Source: Rhizopus arrhizus (Eukaryota; Mucoromycota; Mucoromycetes; Mucorales; Rhizopodaceae). From it: a stretch of DNA of 64,000 nt. The stretch spans positions 1 to 64,000 of the forward strand of contig JAKZZE010000010.1 in assembly GCA_024220505.1 (NCBI GenBank), given 5' to 3'. Each line of letters starts with the position of its first letter. The stretch's first letter is position 1. Positions 6,441 to 40,390 of this stretch are shown piece after piece. The notes under the pieces were generated by a model. It saw nothing but the letters and a program-made list of their open reading frames with translations, ran no database searches and was not told the origin of the DNA. The position numbers and the translations under genes were made by a program.

Positions 6441-6864
6441 CCTTAGAAATAATCAGAGATCCAAGCTTAACTTTAGTCATAGGCCAAATTTTAGCTATAA
6501 GCCTATCCATAGGCATAAACATAGTGAGCTATGTGTACAAATGGCTTTGTATGATTTGTAGACCAAATGGGGTGTGTCTAGTGTTGCTTATCACTCCGCT
6601 TAACTTTAACTATAAGCCCAATTTTAGTCATAAGCCTAGCCATAGGCACAAAAATAGTGAGCTATATGCAAAAATCACTTTATCTCGTTTATATACCCAA
6701 TGGGGTGCGCCTAGTGTTGGTTATCACTCCGAAAAGTAACCGGACAACACTGGATTTTACTTTTTCGCTATAGCCGTGACTCTAACTTTAGTTATCGTCG
6801 TGAAAAGTGCCCTAACCACAACTCTGAAATTAAGCGGGCAACCACAGGATTTTAGGGTACAACC
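6395..6864 (+). repeat. Satellite-like element, single-unit copy
   Basis: The copy begins CACAATTCTGAAATTAAGCG right at the chromovirus breakpoint and ends TTTTAGGGTACAACC. Both edges carry the same 48-bp motif in direct orientation (containing TTAAGCGGGCAACCACAGG), so this is one internal unit of about 420 bp plus a terminal repeat. The same left and right edges bound the larger array at 17785-19653. Internally it holds two related subunits of about 134-150 bp, each ending TTATCACTCCG, followed by a distinct third segment. Confidence 0.8.
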
Positions 6865-17720: not shown

Positions 17721-17784
17721 CTTCCATACTGTTAGGTGGTTTTGCTCCATTTAGCGATGGATGGGGTGCGGCTAGTGTTTCTAC

Positions 17785-19653
17785 CACAATTCTGAAATTA
17801 AGCGGGCAACCACAGGATTTTGGGGTTTAACCATGCAAATAATCAGAGATCCAAGCATAACTTTAGTCATAGGCCAAATTTTAGCTATAAGCCTATCCAT
17901 AGGCACAAAAATAGTGAGCTATGTGTAAAAATGGCTTTGTGTGATTTATAGAGCAAATAGGGTGCACATAGTGTTGCTTATCACTCCGCTTAACTTTAGC
18001 CATAAGCCAAATTTTAGCTATCAGCCTAGCCATAGGCACAAAAATAGTCGGCTATATGCAAAAACCACTTTATCTCGTTTATATACCCAATGGGGTGCGC
18101 CTAGTGTTAGTTATCACTCCGAAAAGTAACCGGCCAGCACTGAATTTCATATTTTTGCTATAGCCGTGACTCTAACTTTAGTTACGGTCATGTAAAGTGC
18201 CCAAACCACAACTCCAAAATTAAGCGGGCAACCACAGGATTTTGGGGTTTAACCATGCAAATAATCAGAGATCCAACCTTAACTTTAGTCATAGGCCAAA
18301 TTTTAGCTATAAGCATAGCCATAGGCACAAAAATAGTGGGCTATGTGTAAAAATTGCTTTAGCCCATTTATAGAGCAAATAGGGTGCACTTAGTGTTGGT
18401 TATCACTCCGCTTAACTTTAGCCATAAGCCAAATTTTAGCTATAAGCCTAGCCATAGGCACGAAAATAGTCGGCTATGTGTAAAAATCACTTTATCTCGT
18501 TTATATACCCAATGGGGTGCGCCTAGTGATGGTTCTCACTCCGAAAAATTACCGGACAACACTGGATTTTAGTTTTTCGCTATAGCCGTGATTCTAACTT
18601 TAGTTATCGTCATGAAAAGTGCTCCAACCACAACTCGGAAATTAAGCGGGCAACCACAGGATTTTGGGGTTTAACCATGCAAATAATCAGAGATCCAACC
18701 TTAACTTTAGTCATAGGCCAAATTTTAGCTATAAGCCTATCCATAGGCATAAACATAGTGGGCTATGTGTAAAAATGGCTTTGTATGATTTGTAGACCAA
18801 ATGGGGTGTGTCTAGTGCTGGTTATCACTCCGCTTAACTTTAGCCATAAGCCAAATTTTAGCTATAAGCCTATCCATAGGCATAAACATAGTGGGCTATG
18901 TGTAAAAATGGCTTTGTATGATTTGTAGACCAAATGGGGTGTGTCTAGTGTTGCTTATCACTCCGCTTAACTTTAGCCATAAGCCAAATTTTAGCTATAA
19001 GCCTAGCCATAGGCACCAAAATAGTGGGCTATGTGTAAAAATCACTTTACCTCGTTTATATACCCAATGGGGTGCACCTAGTGTTCGTTATTACACCGAA
19101 ACGTAACCGGCCAACACTGAATTTCATATTTTTGCTATAGCCGTGATTCTAACTTTAGTTATCGTCATGAAAAGTGCTCCAACCACAACTCGGAAATTAA
19201 GCGGGCAACCACAGGATTTTGGGGTTTAACCTTGAAAATAATCAGAGATTTCAGCTTAACTTTAGCGATAGGCCAAATTTTAGCTATAAGCCTATCCATA
19301 GGCGTAAACATAGTGAGCTATGTGTAAAAATGGCTTTATCGCATTTATAGAGCAAATGGGGTGCATTTAGTGTTGATTATCACTCCGCTTAACTTTAGCC
19401 ATAAGCCAAATCTTAGCTATAAGCCTATCCATAGGCCTAAATATAGTGAGCTAGGTGTAGAAATCGCTTTATCTCGTTTATATACGCAATGGGGTGCGCC
19501 TAGTGTTGGTTATCACTCCGAAAAATAACCGGACAACACTGGATTTTAGTTTTTCGCTATAGCCGTGACTCTAACTTTAGTTATCGTCATGAAAAGTGCC
19601 CTAACCACAACTCTGAAATTAAGCGGGCAACCACAGGATTTTAGGGTACAACC
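17785..19653 (+). repeat. Satellite-like element, multi-unit array
   Basis: The array holds four units with the period motif TTAAGCGGGCAACCACAGG recurring near 17800, 18222, 18643, 19199 and 19620, giving spacings of about 421, 421, 556 and 421 bp. The longer unit has one extra internal subunit of about 134 bp. Its left edge (CACAATTCTG) and right edge (TTTTAGGGTACAACC) are the same as those of the one-unit copy at 6395-6864. A 62-codon open frame recurs in several units (for example 17941, 18384, 18918), always containing LYTQWGAPS. The right edge cuts directly into a Tc1 transposase gene. Confidence 0.85.
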
Positions 19654-36640: not shown

Positions 36641-36780
36641 CATATAGTTATATTCTAAGACGTAGTTTGTATTGAATGGGCTCTCTCTCTCGTCCTTACT
36701 CAATAAAGAGGTTCAAGAGACTCATCGATTATTTGATTTATTTGTTAATTTTATTAATCGAGAGAAACAACACGCCTATT
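36641..36780 (+). repeat. Diverged chromovirus-like LTR relic
   Basis: The stretch ACGTAGTTTGTATTGAATGG..CTCTCTCTCGTC..AGAGACTCATCGA resembles the TATA-downstream part of the chromovirus LTR (compare about 4170-4250). Borders were not found, so it may be a related LTR family or a fragment. The overlapping ORFs at 36672-36963 are not convincing. Confidence 0.35.
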
Positions 36781-37038
36781 CCACAAAAACATTCCCGAGT
36801 CATTGTCATACATTTCGTTTTTGTAACAGCATTATCTCGGATTACAACGCCGAATCAGGTCCCACATTTCAGCCCCATCGCTGGTCCCGTTCCAGGTCCT
36901 GTTACACTGCATAAAATAAAAAGAAAGTTCTTTTTAATTTATTACGTATTGGCGAGATTTTAAAACGTTTTCCCTTAAGATATTTTAGTTTAAGTTTTTT
37001 ATATTATCTAGAATTTTAGTTTGTGGAAAAAGATATAT

Positions 37039-37108
37039 AAGAGCAAGTTTAAGTCACCTGAAGAAGCTTCATTTCGAAGCGAAAGCGCCGCTCGTGCTTT
37101 TTGTTCTT
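37039..37108 (+). ncRNA. Hammerhead-like ribozyme, copy 1
   Basis: Core elements are in order: CTGAAGA (37058-37064, fits CUGANGA), stem II GCTTC/GAAGC (37066-37070 with 37076-37080), GAAA (37081-37084), short stem III GC/GC closing GCC (37085-37091), then T-C and the predicted cleavage point after 37093. Helix I forms from CAC (37055-37057) with GTG (37094-37096) and, beyond a 9/5-nt internal loop, AAGAGCA (37039-37045) with TGTTCTT (37102-37108). Helix I is the open helix (type I layout). One extra A (37065) lies between the core and stem II. Activity is inferred, not shown. Confidence 0.62.
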
Positions 37109-37560
37109 GTTTTGTTGTTCTTTTTGGACTTTTTGGGTTATATTTATTTTATTTTATTTTCATATAAAACAACGCCACCATTCGTAATACAATGTAGTTG
37201 CTTTTTCAATAAAACAATTTTTTCCGAAACTTGTGTTCTACAATCTCGGATTTATCTATTACATATTAATTTGTAATACTTTCTTTTTTCCATTCCCTAT
37301 AATACACAATACGCGGATTAAATCTTTATCTTTCAGATTTCACTTAATATGTAATCTGTATTCCATCGGCAAAATATTTTTGTTTTTCCGTTCCTTACCG
37401 TCTATTATGTATCATCACAAGCATCTTTGGACTACTTATCATGTACGACAACGTGCATCTTACGCCATTATTTCATATATCGTGTACCACCATGTACATC
37501 TTAGATTATGGACATTATCTCCGCCTATCGGCAGTATCTTGACAAGGAAAAAGTATATAA

Positions 37561-37632
37561 AGAGCAGGTATAAACCACCTGATGAAGCTTCATATCTCGA
37601 AGCGAAAGACATTGTCTAGTGTGTCTTGCTCT
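37561..37632 (+). ncRNA. Hammerhead-like ribozyme, copy 2
   Basis: CTGATGA (37579-37585), extra A (37586), stem II GCTTC/GAAGC (37587-37591 with 37599-37603), GAAA (37604-37607), stem III GAC/GTC around ATT (37608-37616), T-A, predicted cleavage after 37618. Helix I: CAC (37576-37578) with GTG (37619-37621), a 9/5-nt internal loop identical in size to copy 1, then AGAGCA (37561-37566) with TGCTCT (37627-37632). The helix I pairing is kept although the bases differ from copy 1 (a G-C here where copy 1 has G-U). A TATA-like box precedes both copies. Confidence 0.68.
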
Positions 37633-37809
37633 CTTTCTGTTGAAACTTTATTGCCCTTTTCTTGGTTTTCTTGGATTTCATCTTTAATTTTTTAATACAA
37701 CCACAAACCTTGTCCTTTCTCTTCTTGGTTCTTTTTCATCTTTTTTGGTCTTTTTGGTCCTTTTTGGTTCGTCTCTTCGTTCTTTTTTGGTTCTTTTCTG
37801 GTTTTTTTA

Positions 37810-38562
37810 ATGTCCGGGCCAATTAGTTTATTTGCAAGTAATAATCCAGACAATTATGGTTTTCCAATTCTTTCTATGGATGGATTTCGTATTGCGGAAT
37901 CTGAATTCGTATACATCCCTGCAGTCAAATCGGAAGTTTCGGGATTTTCACCTTGGATCTTCGATGCCATCAAATTTATATACAATACCGTATTCAAGGA
38001 CAATTACGAACAATTTTCGATTTTAGAACGTTCGGTTCTTAGATTAGAAAAACACCGCCGTGATGGAACGTATCCTCCATTTACCATAAAAAGTTTTTCC
38101 GGTGTTTCAGATACATCTTATCACACGGATAAGTGTATTTCATCTGAACTACGTAATACCTACCTTGCCACAATTGAGGAGGTTACACGCGTTGCCCGAA
38201 ATGGATTATTGAATCAAATTATTGATTCTAAAAAATACGCATTACAAAAACGACAATATTTATGTTCAAGTATAAATGTTTTATGTTCGTTTAGGGACCG
38301 CATTATAGAAAATTTGACTGGTATGAATAAATCTTTAAATATGGTTGATTCGGAGTTACCTCAAATATCTAGAGCATTATGTCATTTGGTATTTATGATG
38401 CAAAATCGTCATGCAATGATAGCTTGGTCAAATTTTCAATTATCTCGGGAAAAACAAAAAATTAAAACAGCAGCTGACTCAGTTATGGATATCTCTTCAT
38501 CATTAACTCCGACAGAAATGTCAGATTCTATTGAACGGCTTGTAAATGTTGTAGAACAGTAA
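37810..38562 (+). CDS. Unidentified 250-aa protein, C-terminus cut by an LTR
   Basis: A single open frame starting at the first ATG after a long T-rich leader with repeated TTTTTGGT units (about 37725-37808). I do not recognise the family. The protein is soluble, mixed alpha-helical in appearance, with no signal peptide or TM segment; the second half (SFRDRIIENLTGMNKS onward) looks helical. The last codons (VVEQ, stop) are read from the LTR that starts at 38547, so the original protein was longer. Its place after two hammerhead-like repeats and among transposons suggests ORF1 of a retroelement, which is inference. Confidence 0.5.
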   Translation: MSGPISLFASNNPDNYGFPILSMDGFRIAESEFVYIPAVKSEVSGFSPWIFDAIKFIYNTVFKDNYEQFSILERSVLRLEKHRRDGTYPPFTIKSFSGVSDTSYHTDKCISSELRNTYLATIEEVTRVARNGLLNQIIDSKKYALQKRQYLCSSINVLCSFRDRIIENLTGMNKSLNMVDSELPQISRALCHLVFMMQNRHAMIAWSNFQLSREKQKIKTAADSVMDISSSLTPTEMSDSIERLVNVVEQ

Positions 38563-39121
38563 CTGATCGTAGTAGACATTGATAAACATAAGTCTTAATA
38601 CAAGATCATAATTAAATAAAATAAAAATACAAGTTTATTTAAATAAGATCATACAATCAATTCCAATTAAACATGTTCTTTTAGAATATGCTTTGTATTA
38701 ATGAGAGTTCTTTGATAAGAAGAAGTATCAACTAAAATAACAAGATCCAATCCAATATCAGGAATATTGCTAATCTTTCACATAATTGAAATAACGCGTA
38801 AAATAACGTTATTCAAATCAGTGAGGAATTCCCAGAATAAAAGATAATCTATGACAGACATACAAAAGAACAAATGAAAAGTTTTCATAATCATAATCAT
38901 AATTATAGATGACACTTGCTAAAGTACCTGAATATTAGAAGAACGCTTACAATAGAAGATATCAAGCCACTCACTCAATAAGATATAAATACCTGCCTTC
39001 AATTAGAATAATTTTTACTTAAAACTTAAACTGAAATAAAGATCAGTCTCAAAAAGTACACAAACTGTTTCTTTATTTTTTTTTCTATCTTTTTCTTAAT
39101 AACTATTACCATTATACAACA
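38547..39121 (+). repeat. Solo LTR, 575-bp family, copy A
   Basis: TGTTGTAG..TATACAACA, 575 bp. It is the inverted counterpart of 39816-40390 and related to 28219-28796. No matching target duplication flanks it (GTAAA left, TCATT right), so it was rearranged after insertion. AATAAAG..CAGTCTCAAAAAGT near 39035 marks the polyadenylation region. Confidence 0.85.
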
Positions 39122-39815: not shown

Positions 39816-40390
39816 TGTTGTATAATGGTTAAGGTAATAAAATAAAAGGTGGAAACAAAAATAAAGAAACAGTTTGTGTACTTTTTGAGACTGATCTTTA
39901 TTTCAGTTTAAGTTTTAAGTAAAAATTATTCTAATTGAAGGCAGGTATTTATATCTTATTGAGTGAGTGGCTTGATATCTTCTATTGTAAGCGTTCTTCT
40001 AATATTCAGGTACTTTAGCAAGTGTCATCTATAATTATGATTATGATTATGAAAACTTTTCATTTGTTCTTTTGTATGTCTGTCATAGATTATCTTTTAT
40101 TCTGGGAATTCCTCACTGATTTGAATAACGTTATTTTACGCGTTATTTCAATTATGTGAAAGATTAGCAATATTCCTGATATTGGATTGGATCTTGTTAT
40201 TTTAGTTGATACTTCTTCTTATCAAAGAACTCTCATTAATACAAAGCATATTCTAAAAGAACATGTTTAATTGGAATTGATTGTATGATCTTATTTAAAT
40301 AAACTTGTATTTTTATTTTATTTAATTATGATCTTGTATTAAGACTTATGTTTATCAATGTCTACTACGATCAGTTACTGTTCTACAACA
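39816..40390 (-). repeat. Solo LTR, 575-bp family, copy B (inverted)
   Basis: 575 bp, reverse complement of copy A with scattered differences mostly near one end. Together they form an inverted repeat with arms of 575 bp around a 694-bp spacer. No target duplication is visible (AAGTT left, AATGA right). Confidence 0.85.

Follow-up and report, generated by a model that had tools for sequence, protein, structure and literature searches.

The window analysed here, the whole of the stretch under study, covers the opening 64 kb of contig C2 in a Rhizopus arrhizus genome of 50.26 Mb and 41 contigs. It carries on its forward strand two sequences, at 37040-37107 (copy A) and 37561-37632 (copy B), that form complete type I hammerhead ribozyme motifs when read base by base and by a scripted search. 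Their parts, with the TATA boxes that adjoin them, are as follows.

37034..37041, + strand: TATA box of module A, TATATAAG
37040..37107, + strand: hammerhead A, type I, predicted cleavage after C17 = 37093
37040-37047 with 37100-37107, + strand: distal helix I of hammerhead A, AGAGCAAG with UUUGUUCU, 8 pairs
37055-57/37094-96, + strand: proximal helix I of hammerhead A, CAC/GUG
37058-37064, 37065 and 37081-84, + strand: core of hammerhead A, CUGAAGA, extra A and GAAA
37066-70/37076-80, + strand: stem II of hammerhead A, 5 bp, GCUUC/GAAGC
37084-86/37090-92, + strand: stem III of hammerhead A, AGC/GCU
37554..37562, + strand: TATA box of module B, TATATAAAG
37561..37632, + strand: hammerhead B, type I, predicted cleavage after A17 = 37618
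37561-37568 with 37625-37632, + strand: distal helix I of hammerhead B, AGAGCAGG with CUUGCUCU, 8 pairs
37576-78/37619-21, + strand: proximal helix I of hammerhead B, CAC/GUG
37579-37585, 37586 and 37604-07, + strand: core of hammerhead B, CUGAUGA, extra A and GAAA
37587-91/37599-603, + strand: stem II of hammerhead B, 5 bp, identical to stem II of A
37607-10/37614-17, + strand: stem III of hammerhead B, AGAC/GUCU

Each window copy thus has 8 plus 3 pairs in an open helix I, 5 pairs in stem II and 3-4 pairs in stem III, which in both cases opens with A15.1-U16.1 and is followed by an H17 that is C in A and A in B. Both copies are free of the pairing or H17 lesions found in their paralogues (see below), and they are predicted to cut their own RNA after 37093 and 37618. 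The copies start 521 nt apart and the predicted cleavage sites lie 525 nt apart. The original prediction of a pair of hammerhead-like motifs that preserve their pairing, carry an extra A and correct U-H doublets and have this 525-nt spacing is therefore borne out by sequence reading and by script, with the exception of the 9/5-nt internal loop that it placed in helix I. We replaced that loop by one of 7/3 nt in both A and B, a register that aligns all copies of the motif, and likewise dropped an alternative helix I register for copy A, CUUGUUUU at 37106-37113, for the homologous 37100-37107.

A genome search for further copies, which had been proposed as a check, returned seven full copies and a set of decayed relatives. 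The full copies are A and B on C2, an A type, a B type and a third copy on C9, and one A copy on each of C15 and C27. A strict pattern was found at six places in the genome and at none in a reversed control, and a relaxed core block, CACCTGANGAAGCTTC, had seven exact genome matches, which are the seven full copies, together with five further places at one mismatch (0 in the control). Across the seven aligned copies none of the 11 fixed core columns varies, so that the loss of core bases in homologous copies, named beforehand as an outcome that would count against the motif, is not what is seen. By contrast N7 varies (A, U or G), H17 is C or A and once G, and variation is found in 14/21 loop columns, 5/16 columns of distal helix I and 4/6 of stem III, compared with 1/10 in stem II and 0/6 in proximal helix I. 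The extra A between A9 and helix II is present in 7/7 full copies, at what we take to be the same position as the extra nucleotide of a viroid hammerhead.

Pairing is kept in 97.1% of 136 cells in the seven copies, compared with 36-49% in a sliding control. Two pairs carry changes on both sides (columns 7-67, AU/GU/GC, and 50-56, AU/CG), and stem III combines a two-sided change with an additional pair in B. The number of two-sided changes was reached by 211/500 shuffles and the covariation score by 1/500, which we regard as modest evidence because the alignment consists of seven related rows. Several paralogues are damaged: C9 A carries G17 and for that reason should not cleave, the C15 copy has a U.U mismatch in stem II, the C27 copy has C.A in stem III and A.G in helix I, and the third C9 copy has a single A.C in helix I.

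The TATA boxes that had been noted beside both copies are indeed there, and TATATAAG and TATATAAAG extend into helix I, sharing bases with the start of its 5' strand. A GAAAAAG-TATA-AGAGCARG block stands upstream of 7/7 full copies, a constant pairing of TATA box and hammerhead that is an odd arrangement. The combined TATA/helix I block has nine exact matches in the genome, seven of them the full copies and two lacking TATATA; only exact matches of this pattern are informative, because at up to 2 mismatches it returns 312 matches against 202 in the reversed control. Between C2 and C9 the TATA and hammerhead segments are identical at 82/83 and 85/87 positions (167/170 together), compared with 638/720 for the rest of the alignment (Fisher p 1.8e-5 for the excess), although in comparison with C15 (p 0.054) and C27 (p 0.18) the module shows no significant excess of conservation.

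How far the likeness between copies extends was assessed by a DNA search with 36750-37810 and by local comparison of the loci, which delimit the following segments.

36750..36786, + strand: end of a separate dispersed repeat that abuts the 5' side of the element and lies outside it, from genome matches
36786..37024, + strand: 5' region of module A, common to C9, C15 and C27
37108..37168, + strand: tail of module A, resembling C15 as far as 37166 and C27 as far as 37170, followed by divergence
37169..37545, + strand: spacer from the tail of A to module B, common among the compared loci to C9 only
37633..37706, + strand: pyrimidine-rich tail of module B, with a 3' end at 37706-37707 common to C9 and C11
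37094..37618, + strand: 525-nt RNA that would result if both ribozymes cut one read-through transcript, from the distance between the predicted sites

Among the genome matches listed for the query from 36750, 34 of 41 cover only its first 36-57 bases. Over 36816-37024 the identities are 188/209 for C9, 190/206 for C15 and 157/177 for C27, with 2, 4 and 33 gap columns, respectively, and the spacer (37166-37545) is identical at 328/378 positions between C2 and C9 with another 48 gap columns. Similarity between A and B themselves is confined to the module (51 + 15 nt, and up to 141 nt between related modules). On these sequence comparisons A and B are modules of ~100-130 nt, each made up of TATA box, hammerhead and tail, with different end points. 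They also occur apart: A is found without B on C15 (36816-37166) and C27 (36786-37170), the 3' half of B is found twice without A on C11 (37596-37706), and both are found on C9 (36815-37707), where a third module lies upstream of the A copy. Beyond the tail of A the sequence shared by C2 and C9, that of C15 and that of C27 all differ, and beyond the tail of B the sequences of C2, C9 and C11 all differ. Constant 3' ends with a variable 5' extent are usual for target-primed retroelements. The C11 copy of B is 5'-truncated: it starts within stem-loop II and is fused to an open frame, which on C30 has a different continuation; the two places on C11 likely represent one event, because their surroundings are duplicated. 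The last bases of the module B tail in the window run into CAACCACAA, a sequence similar to the telomere repeat TTGTGG read as its reverse complement.

A descriptor comprising the core with an optional extra A, a stem II of at least 4 bp, a stem III of at least 3 bp, H17 and a 3-bp helix I matches both strands of the window at exactly two sites, A and B. The same descriptor gave 19 matches in 2,480 Mb of simulated sequence (first-order Markov, with the composition of the window), or ~0.001 expected per 128 kb, a figure that is somewhat optimistic because the descriptor was written after the copies had been seen. The covariance-model match that had been proposed as a check was not obtained with Rfam: no family matched in the whole window at the gathering score, and no hammerhead model matched over 36.9-37.8 kb at E<=10. 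Weak matches to rli62 and snoRNA models in 36.9-37.8 kb (E 1.9-9.9) were taken as chance. A search with RF00163 of the own genome and 14 control genomes is a weak test, because it returned no match in any of them, controls included. A strict pattern scan of viral contigs returned two IMG/VR contigs that share one phage-like sequence and a complete hammerhead-like motif (L048 2344-2374, + strand, and L049 1662-1692, - strand), in which, by eye, A9 is followed by an extra G, stem II has 6 bp and stem III is long; its context is unrelated, and we rejected it as a relative of modules A and B. Rfam found nothing in this motif at E<=0.1 on the two contigs, and the extra base after A9 may explain the Rfam misses, because this extra-base motif was missed too. 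In the nearest-neighbour model all seven full copies have another fold 4-11 kcal/mol more stable than the hammerhead, the lowest and the hammerhead fold being -17.1 versus -10.8 kcal/mol for A and -20.3 versus -16.2 kcal/mol for B.

All of the places at which we found full, partial or decayed copies (13/13, comprising the four contig loci with full copies on C2, C9, C15 and C27, the two on C11 and seven decayed copies) lie <45 kb from a contig end and are oriented so that the 5' side points to it. The telomere repeat (TTGTGG)n terminates C9, C17 and C20, with ~22 units at three contig ends (L011, L050 and L051), and was not seen at the other six of the nine contig ends concerned; the sequence at the start of C2 is, by eye, also found next to the C9 telomere. 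Its reverse complement CCACAA lies <~15 nt from the end of four of nine tails (C2 B, the third C9 module and both C11 copies) and is absent from 5/9, with the reservation that the two C11 positives are likely one event and that such hexamers are frequent in these subtelomeres. In a scan of 16 stretches (the window and 15 loci) for interior runs of at least three tandem CCACAA, only two were found: on C9, 55 nt beyond the third hammerhead, and on C27, ~1 kb upstream of the hammerhead there. The position of all 13 places near contig ends, and their outward 5' sides, are compatible with RNA-templated addition at chromosome ends of the kind described for rotifer Terminons, and subtelomeric exchange would give the same pattern. 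As a separate observation, the window contains 133-bp and 422-bp tandem repeats at 6465-6731 and 17783-19647 with telomere-repeat-like pieces (ACCACAAC).

The seven decayed hammerheads (C20, C9 twice, C27, C32, C17 and C1) are weak model matches of 13.7-19.7 bits (E 0.01-0.8), compared with 82-94 bits for the full copies, and lie within a 401-bp sequence that is present seven times and shows a 69% match with the C9 region that holds the third module. At 7/7 of these subtelomeric places an exon of a multi-exon gene starts 565-569 nt downstream of the decayed hammerhead. This gene, modelled by eye at L011 3878-1120 (- strand) and at six more subtelomeric places, has one exon that is 90-100% identical in seven places at six contig ends, and this exon is weakly matched (33%, with two stops) once more at 120 kb of C11. 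Two pieces of it gave no Pfam match, and of its 12 homologues the five that carry an organism name are all hypothetical proteins of Rhizopus delemar or R. arrhizus. Another module 3' half (CACTGTGTCTAGCGTGTCC and tail) is seen by eye at L011 ~5140-5050 (- strand), upstream of a decayed copy.

Downstream of module B the window continues with an open frame.

37810..38562, + strand: 250-aa open frame (MSGPISLF...), no Pfam match

We could not assign this frame to a known gene, as it has no Pfam match and a single relative of 85% on a 2.4-kb contig, and it is possibly a distant relative of the C11 frame that is fused to half of module B (pairwise E 3e-7, E 0.03 in the genome search). Other short open frames of one family are found at L036 4934-5533, C30:223-430, C13:10870-11077 and C37:1848637-1848873, mostly near contig ends; the C37 member lies 553 kb from the nearer contig end, and the C11 member runs into the 3' half of module B. 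Two 575-bp inverted repeats that are 98% alike, at 38547-39121 and 39816-40390 of the window, flank a Ty3-type remnant with a chromodomain, and one arm starts inside the end of the 37810-38562 frame. No reverse transcriptase gene adjoining the modules could be accepted as their partner: among 20 frames tested in the window and its flanks there were Ty3-type, LINE-type and DNA transposon domains, none of them tied to the modules. A genome search for a Penelope-type enzyme with a probe and no positive control gave 0 candidates, and GIY-YIG had one clear match in the genome, on C8.

Given these features, we read the two motifs, each a TATA box joined to a predicted self-cleaving hammerhead, as likely 3' termini of a pair of small retroelements, the probable products of head-to-tail addition to a chromosome end, a reading that we consider evenly poised between right and wrong. 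The retroelements that bear the modules are likely small, non-autonomous and subtelomeric. Read-through RNA from an upstream TATA box, which for B is likely that of module A, would contain a whole ribozyme, whose self-cleavage would leave one end with a 2',3'-cyclic phosphate and one with a 5'-OH; cleavage at B would give an RNA ending at 37618. The tail, followed at some copies by telomere-complement-like bases, would then allow the RNA to be copied onto the G-rich (TTGTGG) chromosome end by a reverse transcriptase acting in trans, for which a telomere-associated Penelope-type enzyme or telomerase is a candidate. Helix I begins at the end of each TATA box, so that RNA initiated ~30 nt further on (an assumed spacing) would start in the core and lack a working ribozyme, and hence each module would act on the RNA of its upstream neighbour rather than on its own. 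Taken to its full extent, this would describe telomere-capping fungal retroelements that each end in a fused TATA promoter and hammerhead, in which the promoter transcribes the inward neighbour, whose ribozyme cuts the RNA into a template for end addition, and in which ribozyme and promoter replace long terminal repeats; this fuller version we regard as doubtful. Subtelomeric exchange of old relics is simpler and accounts no less well for place and orientation, though it leaves the contrast in variation between core and loops unexplained.

The original prediction had instead taken A and B as the bounds of one retrozyme-like 525-nt unit, which would be cut out of read-through RNA and closed into a circle in the way of plant and animal retrozymes. 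Two predicted-active direct copies with 525 nt between their sites would suit this, the spacing in plants being 400-1000 bp (PMC4918200), and a circle would re-form a hybrid hammerhead, with AGAGCAGG of B pairing by eye with UUUGUUCU of A and with identical CAC/GUG. The 525-nt stretch also folds somewhat more stably than expected (z-score -2.04, with 3/100 shuffles equally stable), and such an RNA could arise from the window copy by read-through. However, the hallmark of a retrozyme is a single unit with hammerheads in direct repeats at its ends, or arrayed as tandem monomers, and A and B show neither arrangement: their similarity stops at the module, they occur separately and their tails have different 3' ends. 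Moreover, the sole other A-B pair, on C9, has G17 in A, the copies found include no tandem multimers, and there are seven full copies in 50 Mb as against >100 in some plants (PMC4918200). We therefore find the 525-nt unit as originally drawn unsupported and judge a retrozyme-like origin unlikely.

Two further explanations do without retroelement ends. The motif might have no ribozyme function in life, a TATA promoter and a nearby palindrome having been spread by subtelomeric exchange, with the hammerhead match a by-product or a dead relic. The palindrome near the TATA box is GAAnnTTC-like, a pattern of heat-shock elements; TATA block and motif always occur together, the alternative folds are more stable, at least three of the seven full copies carry a lesion (G17 in C9 A, stem II in C15, stem III and helix I in C27), and exchange accounts for the orientation. 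Against this, N7, H17 and the loops vary while the 11 fixed columns are constant, stem III shows a two-sided change and gains a pair in B, and two full motifs are present where ~0.001 would be expected by chance, so that we find this explanation distinctly unlikely. Alternatively, the hammerhead might be a co-opted leader ribozyme of subtelomeric genes, in which cutting at 37618 would control expression of the 37810-38562 frame by giving it an RNA that lacks a cap. An intact 250-aa frame does begin 192 nt after that site, and the exon at a near-constant 565-569 nt from 7/7 decayed hammerheads would agree with such a role, but in those seven places the hammerhead has decayed (13.7-19.7 versus 82-94 bits) while the tested exon is open, the C11 half module comes after an open frame, and the 10-kb stretches of C9, C15 and C27 (L007, L035 and L009) have no same-direction frame of at least 180 aa downstream. 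A leader ribozyme is thus very unlikely. If the ribozymes do cut, as the reading as retroelement ends would have it, a fungal genome that is small and whose telomere repeat is known would be a simple system in which to study whether a hammerhead in a telomeric element serves to form ends, to form circles or to escape from the transcripts of its neighbours.

Compared with known type I hammerheads, the modules share the CUGANGA/GAAA/UH three-way junction, an open helix I with an internal loop and closed stems II and III, and they differ in the extra A, in a helix III of 3-4 bp with a 3-nt loop and in the lack of an Rfam match. In head-to-tail arrays of Drosophila HeT-A and TART, an element's 3'-terminal promoter would drive the element that follows; no hammerhead is known in these elements, and their likeness to the modules described here, through the 3'-end promoter, is an analogy only. 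PMC6155905 cites, as its reference 28, a viroid hammerhead whose core has an extra nucleotide. Fungal hammerheads have already been reported (PMC3088659), and among titles and abstract openings of the open-licence literature we found none tied to Mucorales, Rhizopus or fungal subtelomeres.

Plant LTR and animal non-LTR retrozymes, as described in PMC4918200 and PMC7229834, are likewise non-coding, with two direct hammerheads a few hundred nt apart and no reverse transcriptase of their own, whereas here there are no long terminal repeats, no tandem unit is seen, A and B are separable and unlike outside the module, and the copies are very few and all subtelomeric. Penelope-like elements also carry a type I hammerhead in an untranslated terminal part (pLTR), usually without the helix III that the modules possess (PMC11167929 and PMC7761336); the weak tests made for a Penelope-type coding region here, the probe without a positive control and the GIY-YIG search, found none. 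A further comparison is with the Terminons of bdelloid rotifers, giant telomere-associated Penelope-like elements which (PMC6431247) have a hammerhead near the 3' end, a location at chromosome ends, 5' truncation and host genes between elements, all of which have counterparts here, and in which, beyond the hammerhead, telomeric repeats stand in reverse complement, for which pairing with the G-rich overhang has been proposed. The modules differ in being <1 kb, in having a TATA box beside the ribozyme, in having no reverse transcriptase tied to them, in a likely fungal host and in the absence of telomere-complement bases at 5/9 tails. Nevertheless, the order of ribozyme, tail and CCACAA at 4/9 tails, with three tandem copies at one of them, is partly that of the Terminons, and if our reading of the modules is true the link between ribozymes and telomeres seen in rotifers would extend to fungi.
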